This document shows, piece by piece, positions 3,527 through 22,217 of a stretch of DNA of 35,022 bases; positions within the stretch are counted from its first letter, which is position 1, and every line of letters starts with the position of its first letter. The stretch covers positions 1 to 35,022 of the forward strand of contig SLRB01000333.1 in the NCBI GenBank assembly GCA_007131165.1. Reading direction: 5' to 3'. The notes under the pieces were generated by a model, which ran no database searches, was not told the origin of the DNA, and was given only the letters and a program-made list of their open reading frames with translations. Origin of the DNA: Bacteroidales bacterium (GTDB lineage: Bacteria; Bacteroidota; Bacteroidia; Bacteroidales; PUMT01). The translations under genes and the position numbers were made by a program.

Positions 3527-3692
3527 CTTACAGAAGGAAACGCTACGCATTAATTTATATTATTTACAGTAATCAGATTATTTATCAACTATGTTTTTGA
3601 GTCACGACCCGGAAACCCTGCTTTGCAATCCGTTGAATCCTCTTGCAATTATATTCTTCTTTGATCTATAGTTAACTAATGGGGATTCCCCC

Positions 3693-3894
3693 TGAAACGC
3701 CCATGTGCTGACACACACAAAATAAAACGTATAAAGCATGGGCGTTTGACTTCGTCGATCTCACATGCAATATGATTTAACTTTTTGCAAAAATGATCAG
3801 ATGTGACATTCATGGATTGAAAAGCAAAATAGCCTAACCTCGAATCAGTAACATATTGTAAAATAAATTGATAACTATACTTTATACGAATGAA
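3693..3894 (+). repeat. Mosaic intergenic repeat, copy A (modules 1+2+3)
   Basis: This is the longest copy of the family. Module 1 is a hairpin: AAACGCCCATG (3695-3705) pairs perfectly with CATGGGCGTTT (3737-3747). Module 2 (3747-3810) is a 64-nt segment shared only with copy C. It contains TCACAT/ATGTGA arms (3761-3766, 3801-3806) and TTTTTGCAAAAA. Module 3 (3811-3894) is shared with B and D, 80 nt without a difference, and with E at about 74%. The copy starts with TGAAACG and is followed at 3891-3897 by TGAAACG again, so it is bounded by a 7-bp direct repeat. It lies in the divergent region between the permease and blaI, with module 3 towards blaI. Confidence 0.9.
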
Positions 3895-8196: not shown

Positions 8197-9153
8197 ATGG
8201 AGCGAAAAAGCCGTACTGCAACCCGATCCGGAAATTACCTGATCGTGATTACAGGCCCAACAGGGGTTGGAAAAACAGAACTTTGCACATTACTGGCCGA
8301 AGAATACGGCAGCCAGATAATATCGGCCGATTCGCGCCAGATGTATAAAGAAATGAAGACAGGGACAGCAGCACCTTCAGGAGAACAGCTTGCAAGAGTA
8401 AAACACTGGTTCACCGGTAATCTTTCAATACACGATTATTACAATGCCAGTATGTTTGAGTTGGAGGTTACCGGACTACTTGAAAAACTCTTTAAGAAAC
8501 ACCGTATAGTTTTTATGACCGGGGGAAGCGGACTCTATATCGATGCTGTTTGCCGGGGAATTGACGACCTTCCCGCAGTGGATATGGAATTGCGTGAAGA
8601 ACTTGCTGCTAAATACCGGGAAAACGGAATTGAATGGTTGAGGTCCCAGCTCAAAAAACTGGATCCGGAACACTACAGGGTTGTTGACCTGAAGAACCCC
8701 AACCGTATGCTTAAAGCCATTGAGATAAGCATCATGACAGGCAGGCCTTATTCATCCTTCCTAACCGGCAAGACAAAGCCGAGGGCGTTTAAAACAATAA
8801 AAATAGGCCTGACACGTGACAGAGAAGAGCTTTACGAAATTATCAATACCAGGGTCGACGATATGATGAAACAGGGCTTGCTTAAAGAGGCAAAGGATCT
8901 TTACCCCCACCGGGATCTGAATGCGCTGAAAACCGTTGGTTACAGAGAGCTGTTCGACTATATTGAGGGAAAGACAAATCTTGAAAGAGCCTTGGAGCTG
9001 ATCAAGCGCAATACCCGTCGATATGCAAGAAGACAGCTAACCTGGCTGGGAAGGTATAATGACATTTTCTGGTTTCATCCCGGCGACATCAAGGGTATCA
9101 GAGACCTGATAATAAACAAAACAGGTGCAGATCCCGGAAAACCGTATAAATGA
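8197..9153 (+). CDS. miaA: tRNA dimethylallyltransferase
   Basis: MiaA transfers dimethylallyl from DMAPP to N6 of A37 in tRNAs reading UNN codons. The 318-residue protein has the P-loop GPTGVGKTEL (about 20-29), the SADSRQMY motif with catalytic Asp, FMTGGSGLYIDAVCRGIDDLP, and TVGYRELFDY. Length is normal. The start at MERKSR leaves a modest N-terminal extension before the first beta strand; no better start is seen. It begins 49 nt after the LuxC-like gene. Its stop codon TGA (9151-9153) is the first three bases of repeat copy B, so the repeat abuts the gene exactly. The C-terminal tail looks complete, which argues against truncation by the repeat. Confidence 0.97.
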   Translation: MERKSRTATRSGNYLIVITGPTGVGKTELCTLLAEEYGSQIISADSRQMYKEMKTGTAAPSGEQLARVKHWFTGNLSIHDYYNASMFELEVTGLLEKLFKKHRIVFMTGGSGLYIDAVCRGIDDLPAVDMELREELAAKYRENGIEWLRSQLKKLDPEHYRVVDLKNPNRMLKAIEISIMTGRPYSSFLTGKTKPRAFKTIKIGLTRDREELYEIINTRVDDMMKQGLLKEAKDLYPHRDLNALKTVGYRELFDYIEGKTNLERALELIKRNTRRYARRQLTWLGRYNDIFWFHPGDIKGIRDLIINKTGADPGKPYK

Positions 9154-9289
9154 AACGCCCATGTGCTGACACACACAAAATAGAACGTATAAAGCATGGG
9201 CGTTCCATGGATTGAAAAGCAAAATAGCCTAACCTCGAATCAGTAACATATTGTAAAATAAATTGATAACTATACTTTATACGAATGAA
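9151..9289 (+). repeat. Mosaic intergenic repeat, copy B (modules 1+3)
   Basis: The hairpin AACGCCCATG (9154-9163) / CATGGGCGTT (9195-9204) is followed by one C and then module 3 (9206-9289). Over its whole length it is copy A with module 2 cleanly absent, plus one substitution in the loop (taga for taaa). It fills most of the gap between miaA and the Nudix gene and points at the latter. Confidence 0.9.
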
Positions 9290-12553: not shown

Positions 12554-12673
12554 TGAAAGCCCCATGTGCTAAATCACACAAAAAGAAATGTATAAAGCAT
12601 GGGCGTTTGACTTCGTCGATCTCACATGCGATATAATTAACATTTTGCAAAAATGATCAGATGTGACATTCAT
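12554..12673 (+). repeat. Mosaic intergenic repeat, copy C (modules 1+2)
   Basis: Module 1 begins TGAAAGCCCCATG and its right arm is CATGGGCGTTT (12598-12608). Nine of eleven stem pairs are kept, with a GC/CG double mismatch. Module 2 (12608-12670) matches copy A with about four differences in 67 nt. After ...TTCAT the match stops and module 3 is missing. It lies between DUF4199 (leftward) and the SRP RNA gene. The rest of the gap (12674-12856) is AT-rich with no gene seen. Confidence 0.85.
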
Positions 12674-12856
12674 ACGTTTGAATAACCTGGTATAATTTCC
12701 ATGCAAAACATAATTCATTGATTATTAATTTTATTAACCTGATTTGCACGTATGAGTAAGCCGGGACAGGCCGGAACACCGGTATCATCTATATTTGCTA
12801 CACCCTGCATGCATGAAGCAAATATATTGGTTTTTTCATTTATAGAGATGGAATAA

Positions 12857-12990: not shown

Positions 12991-13023
12991 TTTTTTATTC
13001 ATACAGCGCAGAATACTTCTCAA

Positions 13024-13164
13024 TGAAACCCGCATCAGCCTTCGGCAGACAAAATAACATGAACAAACCATGCGGGTTCCATGGGATTGAAAAGCAAAAT
13101 AGCCTAACCTCGAATCAGTAACATATTGTAAAATAAATTGATAACTATACTTTATACGAATGAA
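13024..13164 (+). repeat. Mosaic intergenic repeat, copy D (variant module 1 + module 3)
   Basis: Module 1 has the stem AACCCGCAT (13027-13035) / ATGCGGGTT (13070-13078): different bases from copies A/B but perfectly paired. An inner GCCTTCGGC hairpin replaces the TGTG/CACA one. Module 3 (13080-13164) is identical to A and B apart from one extra G at its start. It sits between the SRP RNA terminator and the aldolase gene, pointing at the latter. Confidence 0.9.
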
Positions 13165-13230: not shown

Positions 13231-13887
13231 ATGAAGTTCTTTCTTGACACAGCCAACCTTGATCAGATTAAAACCGCCGGGGAAATGGGCATTATAGATG
13301 GTGTTACGACAAACCCGTCATTGATGGCAAAAGAGGGCATAACCGGCAATGAGAACATACTTGAGCACTATGTAAATATATGCAGAATAGTTGACGGCGA
13401 TGTAAGCGCCGAAGTCATATCAACAGAATCTGAAGGTATGGTTGAAGAGGGTGAAAAACTTGCATCCCTGCATGAACAGATAGTTGTTAAGGTTCCTGTT
13501 ATCCCTGAAGGGATCAAAGCCATCAAATACCTCACTAAAAAAGGAATCAGGACCAATTGCACCCTGATATTCAATGCAGGGCAGGCATTGCTTGCTGCCA
13601 AGGCCGGAGCTGCCTATGTCTCACCATTTATTGGCAGGTTGGATGATATAGGGCAGGATGGAATGGAACTGATCCACCAGATAGTACACATTTTTGATAT
13701 TTACGGGCTGGAAACAGAAATCATAGCGGCCTCGATAAGGAACACAAACCATATTTTAAGGTGCATGGAAGCTGGAGCCCATGTGGCTACCTGTCCCCTT
13801 GACGCCATAACAGGCCTTCTTAATCATCCGCTTACCAGTGCGGGGCTGGAGAAGTTTCTTGCAGACCACAGGAAGCTGAATAAATGA
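13231..13887 (+). CDS. fsa: Fructose-6-phosphate aldolase / transaldolase-like
   Basis: The 218-residue TIM-barrel protein belongs to the short transaldolase family (FSA/TalC/MipB). MKFFLDTANLDQI is the family N-terminus with the catalytic Asp6. GVTTNPSLMAKEG follows, and the Schiff-base lysine is Lys87 in QIVVKVPV. TNCTLIFNAGQALLAAKAGA and SPFIGRLDDIG are also conserved. Members act either as transaldolase (non-oxidative pentose phosphate pathway) or as F6P aldolase, and sequence alone does not settle which. The rpe gene elsewhere in the window fits pentose-phosphate use. Its stop codon (13885-13887) coincides with the first bases of repeat E, as with miaA and repeat B. Repeat D lies about 66 nt upstream. 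Confidence 0.93.
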   Translation: MKFFLDTANLDQIKTAGEMGIIDGVTTNPSLMAKEGITGNENILEHYVNICRIVDGDVSAEVISTESEGMVEEGEKLASLHEQIVVKVPVIPEGIKAIKYLTKKGIRTNCTLIFNAGQALLAAKAGAAYVSPFIGRLDDIGQDGMELIHQIVHIFDIYGLETEIIAASIRNTNHILRCMEAGAHVATCPLDAITGLLNHPLTSAGLEKFLADHRKLNK

Positions 13888-14024
13888 AAGCCTGATGTGC
13901 CAAATCACACAAAAAGAAATGTACAAACCATGCGGGATTCCATGGATTGAATAATAAATTATCTGTATCATGAAATTGCAACATCTTGTTAAATAAATTG
14001 ATAAACATACCTTATACAAATAAA
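13885..14024 (+). repeat. Mosaic intergenic repeat, copy E (diverged)
   Basis: Module 1 (TGAAAGCCTGATG ... CCATGCGGGATTCC) shares its loop with copy C and its right arm with copy D, and its stem is degraded. Module 3 (13941-14024) has exactly the same length, 84 nt, as in copy A and about 62 of 84 positions equal. The shared blocks cover CATGGATTGA, the TTGT-AAATAAATTGATA stretch and the CATAC-TTATAC end. It lies between fsa and the TsaC-like gene. Confidence 0.8.
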
Positions 14025-14122: not shown

Positions 14123-14743
14123 ATGAGCATGCTTCTGAAAATCCACCCAGAGAACCCAAGCGCGAGAGCGATAGGAAAGGTTGTCGACATCCTCAGGGAA
14201 GGAGGTGTTATCATTTACCCAACCGATACCGTATACGGGCTGGGCTGTGATATATACAACTCCAGGGCAGTTGAAAAGGTGGCAAGGATCAAGGGTGTTA
14301 AAATGAAGGCTGCAGATTTCTCCTTTATCTGTCACGATTTCTCACATCTTTCGGAATATACAAAGCCGATAGCAGGATCCTATTTCAAATTGCTCCGAAA
14401 AAACCTGCCGGGTCCTTTCACCTTCATTCTGCAGGCCAGCAATAATGTGCCGAAACTTTTCAAGAATAAGAAAAAGACAGTAGGTATAAGAATTCCTGAG
14501 AACAACATTATTCTTGAAATTGTAAGGCAGTTGGGCAGGCCGATACTCACTACCTCAATTCATGATGATGATGAGGTGATTGAGTATACAACCGATCCGG
14601 AACTTATCCACGAAAAGTTCAAACTTCTTGTTGATGTTATAATTGACGGCGGATACGGCAATAACATACCATCAACCGTGGTTGACTGTACAGACAGTGA
14701 ACCTCTTATAGTGCGTCAGGGGCTTGGAGACCTTAAACTGTGA
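14123..14743 (+). CDS. YciO/TsaC-type threonylcarbamoyl-AMP synthase-like protein
   Basis: The 206-residue protein has the YrdC/Sua5/YciO fold: [17 protein letters not shown] (about 28-44), [16 protein letters not shown], the nucleotide-site LPGPFTFIL (about 95-103), [14 protein letters not shown], and [17 protein letters not shown] near the end. TsaC/Sua5 makes L-threonylcarbamoyl-AMP from threonine, bicarbonate and ATP for t6A37 of ANN-decoding tRNAs. The [14 protein letters not shown] variant and length resemble the YciO branch, whose physiological role is less certain. With miaA, it may be the second position-37 tRNA modification gene in this block. It follows repeat E and is convergent with trkH. 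Confidence 0.85.
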
Positions 14744-14842
14744 AGCCCTGATAAGCCTTTGGCTATCAAATATACATGAATGACACATCCGGTAAATAAT
14801 GCAAAAAGCGAACAACAGCGCATGTGAAATCGGCCGAAGATC

Positions 14843-14894
14843 AACAAACCACGGGGGTTCCACCGGAATTGAAAAGCAAACCATGCGGGTTCCA
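14843..14894 (+). repeat. Mosaic intergenic repeat, degenerate copy F
   Basis: ACAAACCACGGGGGTTCC, then ATTGAAAAGCAAA, then CCATGCGGGTTCCAT, correspond to the right stem arm of copy D, the start of module 3, and a second right arm. It looks like a rearranged remnant. It lies in the 222-nt gap between the convergent TsaC-like gene and trkH, in which I see nothing else clear. Confidence 0.65.
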
Positions 14895-14965
14895 TACCTT
14901 CAAGGTCATGACCGGCTGATAATAAGACCCTGTAACCTGGTTTGCACATTTTAAACGGAGCGGGA

Positions 14966-22104: not shown

Positions 22105-22163
22105 ATTTTCAATATTTAATTAAACAATTCTAACCAGATAACAATTTACAACAATCTTGGTTC

Positions 22164-22201
22164 AAAAAAAAGCGGCCTCATTAATGAGGCCGCTTTTTTT
22201 T
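22164..22201. terminator. Strong bidirectional terminator after nifJ
   Basis: AGCGGCCTCA and TGAGGCCGCT form a perfect stem around a 4-nt TTAA centre, flanked by an A-run and a T-run. It lies 17 nt past the nifJ stop (leftward gene). Confidence 0.93.
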
Positions 22202-22217
22202 GAACGTTATACTGATG

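Follow-up and report, generated by a model that had tools for sequence, protein, structure and literature searches.

The insertion site of the transposon IS608 lies 3' of a fixed tetranucleotide, which is retained in the left flank and chosen by guide base pairing, and each end of the transposon has its own guide 5' of a hairpin (PMC5934647). Palindrome-associated transposable elements (PATEs) are the transposase-free IS605-type elements of Haloquadratum (PMC3119063). Among the REP/BIME repeats with their TnpAREP (RAYT) proteins, stop codons may come from the REP ends (PMC3733652), and the Bacteroidetes subclass 2.6 has been noted for 'atypical' structures (PMC6006769).

We analysed a stretch of 35,022 nt (hereafter the window; contig C107) from the draft genome of a Bacteroidales bacterium (3.4 Mb in 382 contigs, about 90% complete), for which an earlier note had described a covarying hairpin. 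We found that this hairpin is the left half (the head) of an element of 140–210 bp. The repeat represents a family of short protein-free mobile elements in Bacteroidales that we take to be soda-lake inhabitants, and both its mobile nature and its targeting of ATGA are well supported. No described Bacteroidota element of such kind was found in the open-access literature.

A complete unit consists of (A)TGAA, the head hairpin, zero to four body hairpins, CAT, a tail and ATGAA. The optional body module has a GAC-loop-GTC mini-hairpin and a TCACAT/ATGTGA stem, and the tail is about 84 nt long with ATGA(A) as its terminus. The modules are usually ordered as head-tail or head-body-tail; some units stand in tandem, with neighbours sharing one ATGA. 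In body-bearing units, ATGAA and TTCAT are able to form base pairs that enclose head and body, which creates a hairpin junction. The body stem of the sister genus reads CAAAT/ATTTG, with its pairing retained.

Five copies are present in the window, all on the + strand: copies A, C, D and E of the earlier note, and a fifth one at position 12554 that we added to this set. Copy A comprises a head hairpin (3693–3746, stem AAACGCCCATG/CATGGGCGTTT), a body module (3747–3810, with a GAC-TTC-GTC mini-hairpin and the TCACAT/ATGTGA stem) and a tail of type T1 (3811–3894) ending in ATGAA. The head of copy C (9151–9204), the TGA of which is the stop codon of an upstream miaA-like gene (8197–9153), is followed by a T1 tail (9206–9289). 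In the copy at 12554, the head (12554–12608) and the body module (12609–12670) precede a tail of another type (12671–12755, CATACGT...ACGTATGA), which has a perfect 7-bp terminal stem. The head hairpin of copy D (13024–13078, preceded by the A of ATGAA at 13023) has the outer stem AACCCGCAT/ATGCGGGTT and the inner hairpin GCC-TTC-GGC, and its T1 tail (13080–13164) runs from CATGGGATTG to TATACGAATGAA. In copy E, the TGA of the head (13885–13940) is the stop codon of a transaldolase-like gene (13231–13887), and the tail (13941–14023) ends in ATAA, not ATGA. A degenerate copy at 14741–14895 (+ strand), with an inverted body module (14776–14844) interrupting its head, and a degenerate lone tail at 3551–3631 on the − strand were also observed. 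The genes flanking copies C, 12554, D and E are ordinary host genes. Elsewhere in the window, we noted a small SRP RNA (RF04183; 12886–12993), a tmRNA (RF00023; 31107–31499) and a terminator-like, perfect 23-bp inverted repeat with no spacer and a T run at its end (22160–22205).

Comparison of these copies revealed a mosaic organization. The tails of copies A, C and D are nearly identical, and among these three only A has a body. Copies A and C have nearly the same head and an identical tail, while the tails of A and D are 99% alike and their heads only 69%. Shared heads and tails with differing bodies indicate that modules were exchanged between copies, and thus heads, bodies and tails are swapped within the family. 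Up to four body repeats can be present per element, and an inverted body inside the head loop also occurs, which implies that modules flip as well as being added. Head-to-tail body repeats, up to four per element and each with its own hairpins, were seen at L138 (46–299; the same stretch is present in L242) and at three further loci, L130, L139 and L168. Besides the degenerate copy at 14741–14895, five loci (L017, L042, L043, L129 and L136) have an inverted body in the head loop. At L049, L050, L036 and L136, another head module (...GGGGGAGCGGGGAGGTAACGAACCGCTCTACCCGGAGGGTT) is fused to the same body and tail as in the main element. A short ATGA-flanked unit, ATGA-ATCGTCCATGA..., was found at L164, L093, L127, L154 and L010, and is apparently another family with the same target letters.

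The earlier note had claimed that the stem covaries between subfamilies with perfect pairing, and had attributed this to selection on a fold and not on the primary sequence. The stems of copies A and D are both present as described, and the switch of the inner hairpin from TGTG/CACA in copies A, C and E to GCC/GGC in D was confirmed. In a larger alignment that includes copies from sister genomes, covariation persists over at least six stem types, and D is not a lone recombinant; the arm combinations include AACCCGCAT/ATGCGGGTT, AACGCCCAT/ATGGGCGTT, ATCATCCAT/ATGGATGAT, AACCCCCAT/ATGGGGGTT, AATCCCC/GGGGATT and AACCCTCAT/ATGAGGGTT, among others. The pairing is perfect in A and D, whereas the common type AAGCCCC/GGGGGTT has a G.G mismatch and the outer stem of copy E is broken. 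Copy E combines a 5' arm of the A/12554 type with a D-type 3' arm, with Watson-Crick pairs at only 5 of 9 positions, and by its sequence it looks like a recombinant between two subfamilies. Inter-subfamily recombination therefore happens, yet it does not explain the covariation.

In 40 distinct heads, 90.7% of the pairs were standard. The pair-keeping double-changed cells numbered 28 as against 6.0 ± 2.2 in shuffles, and the covariation score was 0.252, compared with 0.100 ± 0.016 for shuffled and 0.066 for the best slid version. We also used a tree null, where substitutions were replayed along a FastTree/Fitch tree in 300 simulations. For 81 intact heads, from which those judged degenerate or interrupted had been excluded, the covariance was 1.62 for the outer stem (0.45 ± 0.22 under the null; 0/300) and 1.59 for the inner hairpin (0.21 ± 0.16; 0/300, with one alignment gap moved by hand). 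The same picture emerged with all 93 heads (outer stem 1/300, inner hairpin 0/300). Covariation extends to the terminal stem of the tail (90 versus 70.7 ± 4.5 in a shuffle test uncorrected for relatedness); in the commonest tail type this stem has only 3 bp. In an unrestricted R-scape-like test of every column pair, no individual stem pair was significant; module mosaicism and subfamily linkage dominate this test, and single pairs fail it because subfamily structure widens the null. What the data support is covariation of whole helices, not of any one pair. These results show that compensatory changes have preserved the pairing in the head and its inner hairpin as well as at the tail ends. The fold, rather than its letters, was thus kept as had been proposed, and the choice between RNA and extruded single-stranded DNA had been left open in that proposal.

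Next, we compared the places of the copies with the orthologous places in sister genomes. Those of copies C, 12554, D and E were unoccupied in all the sister genomes compared (5 to 12 per site), showing that the copies examined are insertions. Two base-exact empty sites were obtained elsewhere in the genome (loci L030 and L013), each with one ATGAA when empty and two when filled, the second being element-borne or duplicated. At L030, the empty site is a 4-bp ATGA stop/start overlap: genomes G008, G002, G004 and G009 have one ATGAA in the gene overlap (in G008, ...GGAAAATGAAGGACCTG...), whereas our genome has two, 200 bp apart (...AAAATGAAGCC[...]GCATGAAAGCG...), and both reading frames survive the insertion. 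At L013, one ATGAA in G008 corresponds to two in our genome, 136 bp apart, and the insertion falls on a start codon. The orthologues of L013 in G003 and G007 (L271 and L273) carry what appear to be different ATGA-flanked insertions on the same start codon.

From the junction logos, we observed at the left end A in 74% and TGAA in 97–100% of the copies, and at the right end ATGA in 93–99% followed by A in 91%, while the flanks were free. The target is a single ATGAA, (A)TGAA is present at both ends after insertion, and the polarity relative to ATGA is fixed. The ATG of the right end opens a frame of at least 90 codons in 35 of 98 copies (0 and 9 for the other two frames), and the left TGA closes a long frame in 7 of 91. 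As ATGA is kept on both sides, neither protein is damaged when the element lands on a start codon, on a stop codon or in a 4-bp ATGA stop/start overlap, and this would account for the survival of such insertions. Part of the enrichment at gene borders is expected to come from selection, where insertions within genes are lost and those at ATGA borders are harmless.

Head stems are on the whole less well formed where the tail has diverged (Spearman 0.33, p=0.002 for 84 copies; 0.40 for the 32 copies of our own genome). Together with the absence of the insertions from sister genomes, this correlation, modest as it is, suggests that the structure is selected while the element spreads rather than for a service at each locus.

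How does this element compare with the described systems? Like IS608 and ISDra2 of the IS200/IS605 family, it has a fixed short target in its left flank, a fixed polarity, hairpins at its ends and an internal pairing with the letters of the cleavage site (PMC5934647). In contrast to them, it has neither tnpA nor tnpB inside, and its two ends have the same ATGAA, where IS608 has TTAC and TCAA. IS608 has two guides; here, one candidate guide (CAT) would have to serve both ends, which speaks against an IS608-like mode of movement. With PATEs the element shares a short, non-coding and heterogeneous mosaic organization without terminal inverted repeats and with palindromes near both ends; in both cases, insertion was seen against the empty site of a relative, and mobility goes without an obviously intact transposase (PMC3119063). 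In the present case, the left TGAAACC... and the right ...TATACGAATGAA are not inverted copies, and the palindromes are the head hairpin and the terminal stem of the tail, both covarying. However, PATE palindromes resemble those of IS605-type transposons of the same genome, and no such transposon was found here. The element differs from PATEs also in the one CAT able to pair with both ends, the optional and repeatable bodies and the target ATGA(A). We did not file it as a PATE, since no IS605-type transposon with the ends of the repeat was found in its own draft genome (about 90% complete; no PF01797 match above the cut-off). The REP/BIME systems resemble it in being intergenic, hairpin-forming and present in high copy, in their short 5' foot, and in their mosaic units and tandem arrays, but the foot here is (A)TGAA/ATGA and not GT[AG]G, and the unit is a head-body-tail one of 140–210 bp. 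HEARO/IscB elements insert next to ATGA or GTGA and have a folded RNA at one end; in contrast, the ATGA element has no match to RF02033 and no gene inside. In the Rfam search at gathering scores, only the SRP RNA and the tmRNA were matched, and the repeat matched no family, HEARO included.

The fixed target and polarity, the target kept in the left flank, the end hairpins and the guide pairing favour a single-strand HUH transposition of the IS200/IS605 kind. We estimate at roughly 55% the probability that the repeat is a new non-autonomous family, moved as folded single-stranded DNA by an HUH-type enzyme in trans and working like the IS200/IS605-derived PATEs. According to this scheme, the element would be mobilised as folded single-stranded DNA, and an HUH/Y1-type single-strand transposase supplied from elsewhere would cut next to ATGA, as in IS200/IS605. 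Base pairs could form between the central CAT and the ATG at each end (across the head as ATGAA...TTCAT or TCCAT, across the tail as CAT...ATG), and this CAT would be the candidate for a single shared guide that chooses both the cleavage and the target site. We infer the identity of the enzyme, and likewise that the folded strand is DNA and not RNA.

We searched for such an enzyme. The own genome (about 90% complete) and three genomes of the sister genus gave no Y1 transposase (PF01797) match above the cut-off. The Y1 genes present in the genus are IS200 remnants or are flanked by different hairpins, none of them being linked to the repeat, and no TnpAREP/Y1 gene flanked by or linked to the repeat was found. 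Remnants of IS200-type Y1 C-termini with a CCCACAAGC...GCTTGTGGG-like hairpin were seen in five genomes of the genus (L219–L223), and a RAYT-like Y1 gene lies between its own CCCATTGCCCACGG hairpins at L085, unrelated to the ATGA repeat. A search for Y2/IS91 returned one short Y2 fragment, which is not near any copy, and no head...gene...tail composites were found among the copies. It is rather unlikely, in our estimate, that the family constitutes a modular protein-free transposon in which one central CAT guide base-pairs with the cleavage site at each end, the mover is no known Y1/Y2 transposase, and the design is suited to ATGA overlaps and start codons and so spreads without gene breakage.

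We then asked which strand folds. At the stem foot, about half of the heads have an A.C mismatch on the + strand (TGA[A].../...GTTC[C]AT), which is a G.T/G.U wobble on the − strand. The predicted RNA energy was lower on the − strand for 73 of 91 heads, while DNA energies were nearly equal and did not separate the strands. RNAalifold recovered the stem only on the − strand, with no pair on the + strand (the two alignments differed somewhat in their rows, and the comparison was repeated on one set). A covariance model, R1, was dropped as sequence-only, since RNAalifold gave no pair on the + strand. The inner loop is mostly TNC on the + strand, which is GNA on the − strand (in 45 of the 65 triloop heads, or 19 of 31 when only distinct heads are counted), and GNA loops are unusually stable in DNA. 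These predictions are no more than suggestive of a better fold on the strand opposite to that of the earlier note. They speak against the single-strand model to the extent that fold and wobbles favour the − strand, while the insertion polarity, 3' of ATGA, fits a transfer of the + strand. A further point against this model is that staggered cutting at TGAA is a possible source of the direct repeat.

The better fold and the wobble bias of the − strand, its GNA loops in 45 of the 65 triloop heads, and a module swapping that resembles template switching would also suit another enzyme acting on a folded strand, either a reverse transcriptase copying a minus-strand RNA or a tyrosine recombinase as with integron attC. 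We consider this unlikely. The reverse transcriptase domain PF00078 is present in 4 of 11 clade genomes searched, is absent from the own genome and is not found near the copies, and the attC core AAC/GTT is not preserved across the stem types. We rejected integron attC itself: the RYYYAAC...GTTRRRY boxes are not matched, and the ATCATCC/GGATGAT stem type is without AAC/GTT and has unfit flanking letters.

A cut-and-paste MITE of a DDE transposase, with the direct repeat as its target duplication, is quite unlikely. The copies are short, dispersed and non-coding and have a direct repeat at each end, as such a MITE would, but they lack terminal inverted repeats; the repeat is always TGAA with one polarity, where both orientations would be expected at a non-palindromic site, and its sequence is invariant, unlike the usual duplications. 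The least probable alternative is a cis-regulatory element or structured RNA, acting as a hairpin in a 5' leader or 3' UTR and retained at each locus in the service of the host. It would account for the compensatory changes, the third or so of copies directly before start codons and the better RNA fold of one strand, but is very unlikely in view of the element-free orthologous loci in all sister genomes compared, the worse stems of diverged copies, the functionally unrelated flanking genes and the lack of an Rfam match. Single copies may nevertheless serve as promoters or leaders once inserted.

We return to single-strand transposition by an HUH-type enzyme as the preferred reading, and to the distribution of the family. 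The own genome has ~54 head matches, a few of them degenerate or spurious, so that we give its copy number as about 50; these copy numbers are lower bounds. The first locus set, relatives included, had 128 head matches. The five copies per ~10 kb in the window are far above the genome average, estimated at roughly one per 60–70 kb. The repeat occurs in 13 of 13 genomes of the genus and in all 3 searched from the sister genus, which belongs to the same family, and genomes of other families gave only a few marginal matches to the tail end. The weak tail matches in other families (L073–L076) were AT-rich sequences before start codons and were discarded. In GTDB genome contigs, the conserved head pattern was confined to uncultured Bacteroidales/Bacteroidetes MAGs, presumably from soda-lake sediment, as we read their sample names, and the plasmid and phage collections searched gave no match.

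Covariation that was taken as a hint of RNA instead reveals a mobile family and allows its insertion points to be placed with single-base precision. It is a parasite able to insert on start codons and ATGA overlaps with neither gene broken and with the leader of the downstream gene replaced. The diversity of its ends amounts to a natural mutagenesis experiment on the recognition of folded ends. The family also raises the question of which enzyme is responsible for its movement in genomes that yielded no matching transposase.
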